This document shows positions 20,021 through 63,977 of a stretch of DNA of 64,000 bases, in pieces; within the stretch, counting starts at the first letter, position 1; every line of letters starts with the position of its first letter. Below the pieces are notes generated by a model. That model saw nothing but the letters and a program-made list of their open reading frames with translations, ran no database searches and was not told where the DNA came from. The stretch lies in contig NZ_CP152020.1 of assembly GCF_038624605.1 (NCBI RefSeq), positions 2,597,312-2,661,311 of the forward strand. The letters run 5' to 3'. Source of the stretch: Psychrobacillus sp. FSL K6-4046. Lineage in GTDB: Bacteria > Bacillota > Bacilli > Bacillales_A > Planococcaceae. The translations under genes and the position numbers were made by a program.

Positions 20021-20052
20021 ATAAAAAGATCCGACTCCATAAAGGAGCCGGA
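20021..20052 (-). terminator. Terminator of the GH68 gene pair
   Basis: Stem TCCGGCTCC/GGAGTCGGA (one G-T pair) with loop TTTAT, followed on the minus strand by TCTTTTTAT. Confidence 0.85.
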
Positions 20053-20081
20053 CTGAAGACTAAATTTTATATTTAATTTTT

Positions 20082-21995
20082 TTACCTGTTTCTACATCCA
20101 CAGTTAGGGTCATCGTAAAATCTCTTTCTATCTGGTTTCGGAAACGTGATACAGTCATAATCGTCATGCTTATCCTTACATTCACAATCACCTACCGAGT
20201 AGCAGTCATCATCGTGTTTATGCTTAGAGTTTTTCCAATAGTTATCTTCCTTCCAAGACTTATGACTTCTAGGATAGGACGGTTTGCTATGGTTTTTTCC
20301 GCATCTATAACATTGCCCATTAGAATCGTAATTGTCATAATCACACTCATCACTTCTATCATGGTTGCAATCCTCATTGTCTCTGTCTTTCCCGTGTTGA
20401 TGGTTACATTGACAATCGTAATTGTCTTTGCCTCTATTACGATGATGGTTACAATTACAATCACCATGATCTTTACAGCGGCAATCATGATCGTGTTCGT
20501 TTCCACCATTACCGTTTTCTGCACCATTTCGGCAACACTTCGGACTTTCCGTTTCAGATACCATAACCAAGCCGTACTCGTATTCAGCTACAATTTCTGT
20601 TGTTCTACCTGAAACTCTTAATTGAAGAGTAGGCGCAAGAGTTCCACCAAAATGAGCTCTTCGGAATGATTCAGGTAAATCAGCAAGCTCATCTGTCGTT
20701 ATTCCCTGTAAATCGAATGTATCGATAAAGCTTAGTACAGAGAAATCAGGTAACACTAACCAAGAATAGGCCTGATTCGGTTCAGAAACTGGATTTGCTA
20801 TAACTAAACCACCAGAGTTTAATGGTTGATAATTCCCTCTTAATGACCCTGCAACAAAACCATATAAACCATCTGGTCCAGGTCCATTAGTTAAACCAGG
20901 AGCAAACGTAAATCTATGACTATCTGTAAATAAATAGTACAAACCGTTCCTTACAATAAGGTGTGGACGTTCTGTCTGCTGATTTGTACAACCCGCCTCT
21001 AAGAGAGCCGGAAGTAATTGCCAAGAAGTGTACTCATTGTTTCTTAGTAGGGAAATTCCAATATTTCCAGTGTAAAGCCTTGCTTCCTCTGGCACTCCAG
21101 GTCCACAATCAATGTCTAAGTTGTTTCCCGCGATATTACCTTCAAACAATAAATACTCGCAGCCTGTTGCTGGATCTTTAAAGAACCAAGGATCACGGAA
21201 AGCGTAGATAATACTACTTCCACCCGCTTCAGATTGTTCTTGCGTTTGATAAAGCACTCCGTCTGGCTCTAAAATTATTTCATGTGGCGCGAAGTTAACT
21301 AGCTCGACACCATCTAAATTGGATCTAAAGTTACTGCTTGTTAATGCAATGCGTTGTTCAAAAGTTACTTGAGCTTCACCACGTCTACCGGAGGTTGTAT
21401 AGAAGTAATAGATTCTTCCTCCGTCGATGATTGCAGATCCTGCCCATTGTCTTGATCCAAATGCAGTACCCTCTTCAAAAACTAGTCCACCTTGTATCCA
21501 ATTTAAGCCATCTCTAGAATAGAAGTATGCGATTCTCGCTACGTCATGTCTGTTATCTGGCAATACACTTCTAGGTGCAGATAAGGCAAACAGGACTCTC
21601 CATCCACCAGGAAGTACAGCTATAGAGCCATCTTTTTCTTGAAGTGGCCACATATCCCATATCCACAAATCATCTGAAATTCGAGGGAATGGTTCTTGTA
21701 TAACAGGAGCGCTATTAGAAGCAGTAATTCTAATTTGCTCTGCTTGCGCCCTCGTCCAAGCCGAAGGGACCGCGTCAATACTTTGGTTTAAGCATCTTTT
21801 AAAATCTCTTTGTGGGTTGTAGTCACAAAATCTTTTAATATCATTGTTGTTAAATGATCTGTATTGAGTAGTTCCAGAATTAGTTGCAGCACTTGGGAAA
21901 TTTCTATTAGATGAACCTCCAGTTATTGGAGATAGCATTTCATTACCTGACCCAGCGATTGGAACTCTCTGACCCATATCTCTTTTTTTTGACAT
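20082..21995 (-). CDS. GH68 (levansucrase/inulosucrase/invertase family) protein with Cys/His/Asp-rich C-terminal tail
   Basis: GH68 enzymes act on sucrose, hydrolysing it or building fructans. The 637-residue protein has the beta-propeller domain from about 50 to 480 with the three catalytic carboxylates: nucleophile D114 (LWIWDMWPL), stabiliser D268 (FRDPWFF) and acid/base E342 (QQTERPHL). There is no signal peptide; the first 50 residues are Ser/Gly/Asn rich and look disordered. From residue 486 a 152-residue tail carries 18 cysteines among many Asp, His, Asn and Lys, resembling spore coat or exosporium proteins more than any GH68 module. Ribosome site AAAGGTG. It lies 121 bp after its paralogue with no terminator between, so the two are probably cotranscribed. 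Confidence 0.85.
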   Translation of the reverse strand: MSKKRDMGQRVPIAGSGNEMLSPITGGSSNRNFPSAATNSGTTQYRSFNNNDIKRFCDYNPQRDFKRCLNQSIDAVPSAWTRAQAEQIRITASNSAPVIQEPFPRISDDLWIWDMWPLQEKDGSIAVLPGGWRVLFALSAPRSVLPDNRHDVARIAYFYSRDGLNWIQGGLVFEEGTAFGSRQWAGSAIIDGGRIYYFYTTSGRRGEAQVTFEQRIALTSSNFRSNLDGVELVNFAPHEIILEPDGVLYQTQEQSEAGGSSIIYAFRDPWFFKDPATGCEYLLFEGNIAGNNLDIDCGPGVPEEARLYTGNIGISLLRNNEYTSWQLLPALLEAGCTNQQTERPHLIVRNGLYYLFTDSHRFTFAPGLTNGPGPDGLYGFVAGSLRGNYQPLNSGGLVIANPVSEPNQAYSWLVLPDFSVLSFIDTFDLQGITTDELADLPESFRRAHFGGTLAPTLQLRVSGRTTEIVAEYEYGLVMVSETESPKCCRNGAENGNGGNEHDHDCRCKDHGDCNCNHHRNRGKDNYDCQCNHQHGKDRDNEDCNHDRSDECDYDNYDSNGQCYRCGKNHSKPSYPRSHKSWKEDNYWKNSKHKHDDDCYSVGDCECKDKHDDYDCITFPKPDRKRFYDDPNCGCRNR

Positions 21996-22116
21996 ATATT
22001 TTCACCTTTTCTTATTTTCAATTCAATCAAATGAATGGTTGTACGAAAATCTAATTTAATCTAATTTGAAAAATTGACCACTCATATAATCAAATGTTAT
22101 TTATAATTTTTCTTAC

Positions 22117-23673
22117 TTAACGTCTGTGATGATTCTCAGTAGAGTAATCATCATTACATTCTCTGCATTTCGGACTTTCTGTTTCTGATACCATCATTAG
22201 TCCATACTCATAAACATCTATAATCTCCGTATTCCTACCACTTACAGCTAACTGTAGTGTTTGAGCTAGCGTCCCGCCAAAATGCTCAAATTGAAATTGT
22301 TCTGGTAAAAAACCGACTTCTTCTATAGGAATACCTTGTAAATCAAAATTATCTATAAAGCTTAGGACTGAAAAGTCGGGTAATACAAGCCAAGAATAGG
22401 CCTGGAATGGCTCGGAAGGAGGATTAGAAACTACTAGACCGCTTCCATTTAGCGGTACGTAATTTCCACGTAAGGATCCTGCTACAAAACCGTACAACCC
22501 GTCTGGCCCAACAAGACCTGGTGCAAATGTTGAAGCATGAGTATCAGTGAAAAGATAGTACAGTCCGTCACTCACTACTATGTGAGGACGTTCAGTTTGT
22601 TGGTTCGTACATCCTGCTTCTAAAAGTGCAGGGAGTAGTTCCCAACTGGAAAAGCTGTTATTACGAAGTAATGCTATTCCTATATTGCCTGTATATTCTG
22701 CAGCGTCTGCTGGAACTCCAGGTCCACAGTCTACATCTGCTGACGTACCGGCTATATTTCCTTCAAACAATAAATATTCACACCCTGTCGCAGGGTCTTT
22801 GAAGAAGAAGGGATCACGGAAGGCATAAATTATTCCTCCACTAGATTGTTCTTCTGTCTGGTAGAGAATACCGTCTGGTTCTAGGATTACTTGATGAGGG
22901 GCAAAGTTTACTAATTGCACACCATCTAAGTTAGAAATATAATCACTGCTCGATAATGCAATTCGCTGCTCGTAAGTGATTTGAGCTTCTCCTCTTCTAC
23001 CAGTAGCTGTATAGAAGTAATAAATACGACCATCATCATCAAGCATTGCTGAGCCCGCCCACTGTCTAGACCCTAAAGCTGTACCTTCTTCGAATACGTA
23101 ACCTCCCTGGATCCAGTCAAGTCCGTTTCTCGAATAAAAGTAACTGATTCTTGCAACATCATGTCTTTTTCCTGGTAGAACACTACGAGGGACAGATAAA
23201 GCAAATAACACTCGCCAACCACCAGGTAACACTGCGATTGAACCGTCTTTTTCTATTAACGGCCACATATCCCATATCCATAAATCGGCTGATATACGAG
23301 GGAATGGGGCTTCAATTAGCGGTGCAACATTAGTAGAATTAATTCGAATTTGTTCTACTTGGCTCCTTGTCCAAACAGATGGAATCGCGTCGCGGTTATA
23401 TTCAAGGCAACGTCCGAAATCTCTTCTAGGGTTATAGTTACAAAACTGACTAATTTGTTTGCCATTAAAAGTTCGATAACGAACATTGTTATTTCCAGTG
23501 GCTCCAGAAGGAGAGTTCCGATTAACAGAAGCACTCGGCATTATATTTGCGGATTCTATTCTCGAGCTTCTAACAGGAAATTGTTGCGAAGTTAGTTTAT
23601 ACCTATTTTTATTTGAGCGATGTTCATGTTCCCCAAGTCTATTAAAATGTTTTTCATCATTTTCTTTTGTCAT
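22117..23673 (-). CDS. GH68-family protein, tandem paralogue with short tail
   Basis: The 518-residue protein resembles its downstream neighbour closely over the catalytic domain (roughly three quarters identical by eye), with D135 (WIWDMWPLI), D287 (FRDPFFF) and E361 (QQTERPHI) all present. It also lacks a signal peptide; the first 70 residues are polar and low in complexity. The C-terminus ends shortly after ESPKCRECND, so the long Cys-rich tail of the neighbour is missing. A sigma-K-type promoter lies 36 bp upstream. A role at the spore surface is inferred from this promoter and the Cys motifs; sucrose-acting activity from the family. Confidence 0.85.
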   Translation of the reverse strand: MTKENDEKHFNRLGEHEHRSNKNRYKLTSQQFPVRSSRIESANIMPSASVNRNSPSGATGNNNVRYRTFNGKQISQFCNYNPRRDFGRCLEYNRDAIPSVWTRSQVEQIRINSTNVAPLIEAPFPRISADLWIWDMWPLIEKDGSIAVLPGGWRVLFALSVPRSVLPGKRHDVARISYFYSRNGLDWIQGGYVFEEGTALGSRQWAGSAMLDDDGRIYYFYTATGRRGEAQITYEQRIALSSSDYISNLDGVQLVNFAPHQVILEPDGILYQTEEQSSGGIIYAFRDPFFFKDPATGCEYLLFEGNIAGTSADVDCGPGVPADAAEYTGNIGIALLRNNSFSSWELLPALLEAGCTNQQTERPHIVVSDGLYYLFTDTHASTFAPGLVGPDGLYGFVAGSLRGNYVPLNGSGLVVSNPPSEPFQAYSWLVLPDFSVLSFIDNFDLQGIPIEEVGFLPEQFQFEHFGGTLAQTLQLAVSGRNTEIIDVYEYGLMMVSETESPKCRECNDDYSTENHHRR

Positions 23674-23708
23674 AACTTACACACCTTTAATAGATTTTCG
23701 TACTTTGC

Positions 23709-23737
23709 TATCATATGTAGAGCCAAAAGAAAGGTTT
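23709..23737 (-). promoter_or_regulatory. Sigma-K-type promoter of the GH68 pair
   Basis: On the minus strand, AAAC (23737-23734), 16 bp, then CATATGATA (23717-23709). This fits the mother-cell sigma-K pattern AC-N16/17-CATAnnnTA exactly. The start of transcription would be near 23702, giving a 30-nt leader with ribosome site AAAGGTG before the ATG at 23673. Confidence 0.7.
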
Positions 23738-23797: not shown

Positions 23798-23833
23798 AAA
23801 AAAGGGCAATCTCATGAGAGATTGCCCTTTTTT
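23798..23833. terminator. Bidirectional terminator
   Basis: A 16-bp perfect stem AAAAAAGGGCAATCTC with its complement and loop ATGA, with A/T runs on both sides. It probably ends the methyltransferase transcript (minus strand). The rest of the 328-bp gap shows nothing else but the GH68 promoter. Confidence 0.85.
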
Positions 23834-24001: not shown

Positions 24002-24751
24002 TTACTTTTTCAGTCGAAAAACAATGAAGTCGGGACTTCTAAAATCCTCACGAAATGATGGGTACTTCTTCAACATTTCCTCAGATGGGGTAGGCTCTAC
24101 TATCTCTTCTATTAAAAATCCAGCTTCACAGATGGCTTTTACATAACTTGTTAATGTGCGGTGATAGAAGATTACCTGGTCCATCCCTCTTTGCTCATAG
24201 GCTCCCTCATAAAAATAGTTATCTACTTTCCAATATAATTTTTTACCGTCATGCCCTTTCTCCCATCCACTTTTTGGAGTTTGAAAACAAGGATGTAAAA
24301 TAGAAAAGATAAAAATCCCACCCTCTCGAAGAACACGATAAATCTCATTAAATGCTTGCTGATAACCTTCTAAATCCTGGATCACCATATTAGAAACAAC
24401 TACGTCATAAGTTCCTTCCATTATAAAATGTAAATTTTCACAGTTAGATTGTTTAAATTCTATATTGAGTTCTGATGTTGTTCTACTTTTTGCTATTTCA
24501 ATCATCTTTGATGAATAGTCAATAGCTGTTACAGCTGCTCCTGCTTTCTCCATCAGTCTACTTAAATACCCTTCTCCACAACCAGCATCTAGTACTTTTT
24601 TGTTGTTTAAATTCCCCATAAGACTAAACAAGGTTGGATTTAAATATACCTCTTTATGTGGATCTCCATGCTCCAGATGATTGGCTGCATATTTTTCAGC
24701 AAACTTGTCCCACCTCTTAATAGAATCTTCAGAAGTCATATTTTTTACCAT
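24002..24751 (-). CDS. Class I SAM-dependent methyltransferase
   Basis: A 249-residue methyltransferase with Rossmann motif VLDAGCGEGYLSR near residue 54, acidic motif AIDYSSKM near 76 and YDVVVSNMVIQDLEGY in the post-II region. The substrate is a small molecule or quinone-like compound at a guess; the family is too broad to say. The gene stands alone, with GGGAG upstream of the ATG at 24751. Confidence 0.8.
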   Translation of the reverse strand: MVKNMTSEDSIKRWDKFAEKYAANHLEHGDPHKEVYLNPTLFSLMGNLNNKKVLDAGCGEGYLSRLMEKAGAAVTAIDYSSKMIEIAKSRTTSELNIEFKQSNCENLHFIMEGTYDVVVSNMVIQDLEGYQQAFNEIYRVLREGGIFIFSILHPCFQTPKSGWEKGHDGKKLYWKVDNYFYEGAYEQRGMDQVIFYHRTLTSYVKAICEAGFLIEEIVEPTPSEEMLKKYPSFREDFRSPDFIVFRLKK

Positions 24752-63194: not shown

Positions 63195-63977
63195 TTATTT
63201 AGGATTTAACTGATTTTGAATAGTAGATAAAGCACTTTTCTCTAGTCTTGAGATTTGAGCCTGCGAGAGACCCAGGTCGGTAGCTATTTCGGTTTGTGTC
63301 GCACCAAAGTATATTCTTTTCGTTAATATTTTCTTTTGTCGCGAGTCTAAGTTTTGAAAACTCTCTTTTACCGTAAAATAAGTAACCCATTGATCTTCTG
63401 ATACATCATTATCACATAATTGATCCATCATATAAATAGCATCTCCTCCATCACTGAAAATTGGTTCTTGAAGAGAGACAGGATCTTGAATTGCATCTAG
63501 CGATAGTAATATATCTTCTACTGGTATCTCAAGTATTTTAGACAAATCCTCTAATGTCGGTTCTTCCAAATGTTCGTTAATATATTGTTCCTTGGCTTTC
63601 ATAGCCTTATAAGCAATATCTCTTAATGATCTAGAAACTCTTACAGAATGGTGGTCACGCAAATGTCTTTTTATCTCACCAATGATCATAGGCACTGCAT
63701 ATGTGGAAAAACGCACATTATGTTTTAAATCAAAATTTTCAATGGACTTTATAAGCCCTATGCAACCTACCTGGAATAAGTCATCTGCTTGCTCGCCTCT
63801 ATAAGCGAAGCGCTGTACTAGACTTAAAACTAATCTTAAATTACCCATTACCAATTCATCTTTAACCGAATCTTCGCCAGCTTGTAAGCGAATAAATAAT
63901 GCTTTCATTTCTTCGTGGGTTAGTAAAGGAAGCTTTGATGTGTCAATGCCGCATAATTCAACTTTTGTTCTCGTCAT
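63195..63977 (-). CDS. sigG: Forespore sigma factor SigG
   Basis: Late forespore RNA polymerase sigma factor. The 260-residue protein has the SigG-specific N-terminal segment VELCGIDTSKLPLL (anti-sigma contact region), region 2 with DDLFQVGCIGLIKSIENFD and FSTYAVPMIIGEIKRHLRD, region 3 and region 4 with TQTEIATDLGLSQAQISRLEK. Length and sequence identify SigG rather than SigF. It proves that the organism sporulates or descends from a sporulator. The upstream sigE region is outside the window. Confidence 0.96.
   Translation of the reverse strand: MTRTKVELCGIDTSKLPLLTHEEMKALFIRLQAGEDSVKDELVMGNLRLVLSLVQRFAYRGEQADDLFQVGCIGLIKSIENFDLKHNVRFSTYAVPMIIGEIKRHLRDHHSVRVSRSLRDIAYKAMKAKEQYINEHLEEPTLEDLSKILEIPVEDILLSLDAIQDPVSLQEPIFSDGGDAIYMMDQLCDNDVSEDQWVTYFTVKESFQNLDSRQKKILTKRIYFGATQTEIATDLGLSQAQISRLEKSALSTIQNQLNPK

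Follow-up and report, generated by a model that had tools for sequence, protein, structure and literature searches.

In the genome of Psychrobacillus sp. FSL K6-4046, two adjacent genes, here called A and B, encode fructansucrases of glycoside hydrolase family 68 (GH68) that lack signal peptides. They are located in the 64,000-nucleotide stretch of contig NZ_CP152020.1 (positions 2,597,312 to 2,661,311) that was analyzed as a whole and is referred to as the window. Both belong to a group of 15 signal-less GH68 proteins from 11 genomes. Judged from sequence comparisons, A and B are probably fructansucrases which are made in the mother cell under sigma-K, are anchored in the spore coat or crust, and make fructan from sucrose; the group has most likely been redirected to the surface of the spore, away from secretion.

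Signal-less GH68 proteins with intact catalytic domains

The following features were assigned in and around the gene pair:

22117..23673, minus strand: gene A, first of the pair, GH68 fructansucrase of 518 amino acids (aa) without signal peptide (open reading frame (ORF) list, PF02435)
23374..23673, minus strand: polar N-terminal extension of A, approximately residues 1–100, with the Cys pair C78/C89 (sequence and alignment)
20082..21995, minus strand: gene B, GH68 fructansucrase of 637 aa without signal peptide and with a Cys-rich tail (ORF list, PF02435)
21759..21995, minus strand: polar N-terminal extension of B, residues 1–79, with SPI-x-GG-x-SN-x-NFPS and the Cys pair C57/C68; predicted to adopt an ordered, helical structure starting at about residue 50
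20550..21758, minus strand: GH68 catalytic domain of B, approximately residues 80–482, triad D114/D268/E342 (PF02435, alignment, structure model)
20085..20540, minus strand: Cys/Asp/His-rich tail of B, residues 486–637, with 18 Cys; mostly of low model confidence and predicted to be disordered
23709..23735, minus strand: sigma-K-type promoter AC-N16-CATATGATA, with AAAC starting at 23737 (motif match)
20029..20053, minus strand: terminator-like hairpin directly 3' of B (hairpin scan)
23798..23833, no strand assigned: two-way terminator-like hairpin upstream of A (found by eye, absent from the hairpin-scan list)

A search of the complete genome (one contig, 3.886 Mb) returned two GH68 matches, which are A and B. 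A sequence-only reading of the window had described them as adjacent paralogues with intact catalytic triads and no signal peptides, one of them carrying a 152-residue tail with 18 Cys, and all of this was confirmed. PF02435 covers the catalytic domain of both proteins (B: E 5.7e-87, 292.8 bits; A: E 8.9e-87, 292.2 bits; cut-off 27), the triad consists of D114/D268/E342 in B and D135/D287/E361 in A, and the RDP and ER motifs are present. In a search against NCBIfam, B matched no family and A only weak, unrelated ones. Neither start region contains a hydrophobic segment, and in-frame stop codons are located two codons (B) and one codon (A) ahead of the ATG, so that no longer, signal-bearing start exists. 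The tail of A comprises 23 residues with two Cys. Among named relatives, Psychrobacillus sp. BL-248-WT-3 comes closest (99% identity in A); its genome (G135, the sibling genome, with coordinates identical to those of entry G626) was listed in the search as belonging to the same species.

The signal-less group is rare. The initial scan comprised 30 loci, seven of which (L003–L009) contained group members, and further searches covered 261 genomes of the family, 398 of the class, nine of the Pontibacillus chungwhensis family and 249 of the Sporolactobacillus order. In the family, four of the 261 genomes had a match, and members were found in three (the window genome, the sibling and Rummeliibacillus), the weak match in G125 being of another kind. 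Matches occurred in 22 of the 398 genomes of the class sample, with group membership only in the window genome, and in 15 of the 249 genomes of the order sample at 1e-30, seven of which fell into the group, six of them already known. The window genome, the sibling, Rummeliibacillus and G699 each hold two members, while Sporolactobacillus, Terrilactibacillus, a Bacillaceae bacterium and four Pontibacillus-family genomes each hold one. The short contigs L004 (5.5 kb) and L006 (4.2 kb) may represent contamination.

All 15 proteins formed one group (support 99/98) in a tree of 87 rows, which required one change compared to a mean of 14.0 after shuffling (midpoint root). Four double-domain proteins longer than 800 aa (L097, L107, L108 and L118) were left out of this tree; each of these is a single protein of 852–1082 aa that begins with a signal-like segment and contains a pair of GH68 domains, and they are encoded by G639 and by genomes of the Pontibacillus family. 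Near the start, the maximal hydrophobicity over 15 residues was ≤0.49 in all 15 group members and ≥1.35 (rounded) in all 53 other GH68 proteins extracted from Bacilli, as determined with a simple score, not SignalP, and with start codons chosen by script (ATG preference plus ribosome-binding match). No usable start could be extracted for L036 (a weak match from the window's own genus), L041 (a frame broken by one stop) and L047. Each of the 15 proteins combines a polar N-terminal extension with a Cys/His-, Lys- or Arg-rich tail. The group tails contain one to 23 Cys, the highest number occurring in Rummeliibacillus B, whereas no tail Cys was found in the 53 other Bacilli proteins (50 extracted tails; the other three proteins were Cys-free over the last 40 residues). 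Moreover, C57, C68 and C279 (B numbering), which are a pair in the N-terminal extension and one residue in the catalytic domain, are invariant in the 15 group rows and absent from the 20 other aligned relatives. At least six of the 11 group genomes also hold other GH68 genes, and those extracted have hydrophobic, signal-like starts; hence, the putative spore-type gene in these organisms adds to secreted ones. The co-occurrence of missing signal, polar extension and tail in 15 homologues, their position in one tree group, and the promoter pattern described below (8/15 versus 0/47 genes) place the observation above chance.

The catalytic triad is kept in all 15 members, and 28 of 30 examined positions, which include the active site, are identical throughout the group; only positions 112 (I/V) and 341 (T/L) vary. 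The ratio of nonsynonymous to synonymous substitution rates (dN/dS) in the catalytic domain was 0.032 for A and 0.052 for B between window and sibling, and 0.039 between two Pontibacillus sequences, whereas the tails of the same pairs had values of 0.10–0.20 and thus evolve faster. Both Rummeliibacillus pairs gave no value for the catalytic domain due to saturated dS. The intact triad and the purifying selection on the domain indicate that A and B have been kept as enzymes. An AlphaFold2 model of B, based on 35 sequences, has 377 residues with a predicted local distance difference test (pLDDT) score ≥90; most of the catalytic domain exceeds 90, an ordered helical N-terminal segment is predicted from about residue 50, and most of the tail remains below 50. 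The model, which was made for B only, adopts the GH68 propeller fold, with 7bj4 as best solved match (Z 56.8, root-mean-square deviation 1.5, 394 aligned residues, 50% identity). HX(H/F)T has been proposed as an inulosucrase marker (PMC8066391). This mark is carried by B (HRFT), by 12 of the 15 group members in total and by several secreted relatives, but not by A (HAST); in the three A-type proteins, S replaces F. Therefore, A and B may differ in product, an inulin-type product being predicted for B by this proposed marker.

Promoter and spore context

Upstream of A, the element AAAC-N16-CATATGATA was found with its −10 ending 35 nt before the ATG. The sequence-only reading had recognized this promoter and placed it 36 nt away; the element stands and the distance is corrected. 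The sigma-K motif is described as a 5-nt −35 and a 10-nt −10 separated by a gap of 14–16, the fourth −35 position being C compared to T for sigma-E, whereas both regulons have an identical −10 (PMC517825). Across the group, AC-N16-18-CATANNNTA was present within 200 bp of the start in eight of 15 genes and in none of 47 GH68 controls with hydrophobic starts (Fisher's exact test, p = 1.9e-6, with related genes treated as independent). When near relatives were merged, five of eight lineages had the element, and the per-gene chance of a match was 0.3 to 2% (spacing 15–17). The controls comprised 45 genes from Bacilli plus two from other organisms (L010, L013); among the 53 other Bacilli genes, seven with too little upstream DNA and L057, just under the score limit, were left out of the promoter test. 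On the minus strand, no sigma-70-like match was found from the upstream hairpin to A; the sole minus-strand match in the scanned stretch is located beyond the hairpin at 24013–23985.

Loci of the cotY/cotZ family served as positive control, using 300 bp of upstream DNA, a spacing of 15–17 and the most Cys-rich ORF per locus (L144 and L148 yielded the same ORF, and the ORF of L153 is doubtful). The same element occurred in nine of 21 loci, eight times at −65 to −70 and once at −198. For group-holding genomes the count was seven of 14, all seven from the Pontibacillus family. A conserved 5' leader hairpin, noted in leaders from Pontibacillus, Terrilactibacillus and Sporolactobacillus, was considered and rejected, as z-scores for ten leaders ranged from 0.11 to −1.88 and the window leader had none. 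Short inverted repeats with weak z-scores directly follow the −10 in the leaders of L007, L008, L104, L009 and L005.

SpoIVA was detected in all 11 member-holding genomes and in all 12 genomes with only signal-bearing GH68. The sequence-only reading had expected the proteins to be restricted to spore formers, and among the 23 genomes typed, all of which have GH68, no holder without spoIVA was found. The CotZ family was present in nine of 11 group genomes and in three of 12 genomes with only signal-bearing GH68 (Fisher's exact test, p = 0.012, not corrected for kinship). CotY is disulfide-linked in the coat (PMC4950064), and KapD is an enzyme held in the crust by CotY (PMC11736430). CotZ is missing from two group genomes, those of Sporolactobacillus and Terrilactibacillus, and it is these that encode Lys-rich tails, which suggests, as a hint from two cases, that tail chemistry may follow the surface scaffold.

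The proposed expression in the mother cell under sigma-K and the non-secreted, spore-type design are supported across the 11 genomes by the group-wide absence of signals, the recurring promoter with AC at −35, the group-specific Cys, the low-complexity tails, and spoIVA in every member-holding genome. A and B would be made late in sporulation and, instead of being secreted, deposited on the exterior of the forespore. There, the outer coat or crust, with its CotY/CotZ layer where this is present, may capture the polar Cys-bearing N-terminal extension and the Cys/His- or Lys-rich tail and cross-link them, and the mature spore would carry an immobilized sucrase. Sucrose reaching the spore would be cleaved, with glucose released and fructosyl units transferred or polymerized. 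The most likely role would be to surround the spore with fructan as a layer or glue, followed by the provision of sugars that may help germination. Of these steps, we infer spore deposition, cross-linking, activity, the fructan product and its use.

Points against a spore location and alternative explanations

Several observations weigh against this interpretation. The promoter was absent from seven of the 15 group genes; three of these occupy the second position in a pair, which leaves L004 A, L121, L005 and L006 as true misses, L005 carrying the near match CATAACATG. The motif alone was at chance level in the window (four found, 7.3 expected), and a stricter motif had eight matches in the genome compared to five for the reversed pattern. 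Gene A accounts for one of these eight, three others are not followed within 250 nt by the start of an ORF of at least 45 aa, and four precede genes that were not recognizable by eye as spore genes. The promoter was therefore dropped as stand-alone evidence, and its weight derives from the cross-species pattern, not from the match in the window. In the window genome, cotZ is preceded by the −10 only. The sigma-K-like gene reached a best score of 277.3 bits, below the family cut-off of 298.65, as did all controls including B. subtilis. Since SpoIVA occurs in all 23 tested genomes, it does not separate the two sets. The tails from Terrilactibacillus (Lys-rich) and G633/L105 (Arg/Asp/His-rich) contain a single Cys each. 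Attachment by a Cys tail, as the sequence-only reading had proposed, is consequently only partly supported: Cys specific to the group exist, whereas the tail chemistry varies. A targeting signal common to other proteins of the genome was also considered and rejected. The N-terminal extension and tail of B, used as query, matched only A and B at E values up to 10, and hence no general targeting signal was shown, although low-complexity tails are hard to find in such a weak search.

Alternatively, A and B could be levansucrases of vegetative cells that serve sucrose use or biofilm formation and reach the outside by signal-independent export or release, a route known for levansucrases of Zymomonas, Erwinia and Pseudomonas. 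The absence of a signal alone is indeed no mark of a spore protein, and among solved structures, Gram-negative levansucrases are second in similarity only to the haloarchaeal enzyme. We regard this explanation as improbable in view of the paralogues with hydrophobic, signal-like starts in the same genomes, the sigma-K-type promoter without a sigma-70-like match near A, and the tails, which occurred in no extracted GH68 protein outside the group. Furthermore, family GH32 is the usual route of sucrose and fructan breakdown, and a search for it, the only sucrose-enzyme family searched besides GH68, found none beyond GH68 cross-hits in the window genome, the sibling and Rummeliibacillus, which makes a vegetative sucrose role in the window genome less likely; the other eight of the 11 group genomes contain GH32. 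That the proteins are structural coat components reusing the GH68 fold, with catalysis no longer in use, appears very unlikely. The faster evolution of the tails is what would be expected of structural coat parts, whereas the triad kept in 15/15 proteins, the 28 of 30 identical positions and the catalytic dN/dS of 0.03–0.05 argue for retained activity.

Two further explanations agree with a spore location. GH68 enzymes also hydrolyze sucrose, and glucose and fructose are co-germinants of B. subtilis, so that spore-surface sucrases might mainly make these germinant sugars from sucrose instead of fructan. The evidence for their location would be the same as under the favoured explanation, while the retention of a GH68 enzyme instead of a plain invertase would favour transfer, and we consider this main function possible but rather unlikely. 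Expression under sigma-E, yielding an earlier mother-cell product that still reaches the spore, has a low probability in our assessment: it is consistent with the −10 shared by both regulons (PMC517825), whereas the −35 of the sites reads AC and so contains the base characteristic of sigma-K, with the reservation that AC was built into the search pattern and the AT variant was not counted.

Gene neighbourhoods, known systems and implications

Gene neighbourhood was discarded as a guide. The neighbours in Pontibacillus and in the window looked unrelated by eye. The Sporolactobacillus gene (L005:265-5769) is located just downstream of genes for a UDP-glucose dehydrogenase and an epimerase, together with a GalU-like gene and two glycosyltransferases. 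These neighbours presumably resemble spore polysaccharide genes of B. subtilis, and the locus is a possible spore polysaccharide cluster. The Terrilactibacillus gene (L009:8474-13292) adjoins three GT2 glycosyltransferases and a nucleotidyltransferase. In G699, an ammonium-transporter-like gene and the gene that comes after it, a few kb from the GH68 pair (L155:16464-18851), resemble neighbours of the window pair; judged by eye, gene order is partly shared across genera between the window and G699. Two sigma-factor genes related to sigma-K, which we take, as a guess, to be sigG and sigE, are located at the right edge of the window (63195-63977) and just outside it. In G633, a 132-aa ORF with nine Cys (L157:17445-17900), located at a distance of about 8 kb from the GH68 gene, has a sigma-K-like site 60 bp upstream, and its start presumably resembles endospore appendage proteins.

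Secreted GH68 enzymes of Bacilli, which include SacB-type levansucrases as well as products of tandem GH68 genes found in other Bacilli, share the catalytic domain, the triad and the sucrose-type active site with A and B. They differ in their signal-like starts (53/53 of those extracted), the lack of tail Cys, and the absence of the sigma-K-type promoter from the 47 controls (45 from Bacilli). The closest solved structure to B is the inulosucrase of Halalkalicoccus jeotgali (7bj4, 7bjc), listed as "levansucrase" in the sequence table. Two Cys in the catalytic domain of haloarchaeal GH68 align with C316/C355 of A, whereas the host is an archaeon that forms no spores. For a related enzyme from Halomicrobium, a signal was predicted by PRED-TAT and not by SignalP 5.0 (PMC8066391). 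The single GH68 match of P. chungwhensis BH030062 belongs to the signal-less group, and we infer that it is the P. chungwhensis GH68 which has been published as a putative inulosucrase, with haloarchaea as possible recipients (PMC8066391); the word "spore" is absent from the main text of that source.

Among spore proteins, KapD of the B. subtilis crust is likewise a mother-cell-made enzyme held in the crust, differing from A and B as an exoribonuclease with an RNA substrate and no GH68 domain (PMC11736430). The crust proteins CotY and CotZ are likewise Cys-rich and share the promoter element (nine of 21 loci), whereas they form a scaffold without an enzyme domain. A search of titles and abstract beginnings in the open-licence literature found no description of GH68 fructansucrases on the spore surface.

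If the favoured explanation is correct, fructansucrases on spores would connect the adhesion, protection or germination of these spores with niches rich in sucrose, for example plants and foods, and would represent a natural case of the enzyme display on spores that is otherwise engineered in biotechnology. The group lends itself to simple tests, some of them in species without detected GH32, an enzyme that could blur a sucrose assay. More tentatively, dormant spores of several Bacilli might be catalytic particles, whose immobilized fructansucrases would convert sucrose from the environment to free glucose and a capsule of fructan without metabolism, so that the spore could build or remodel its own polysaccharide shell after the death of the mother cell.

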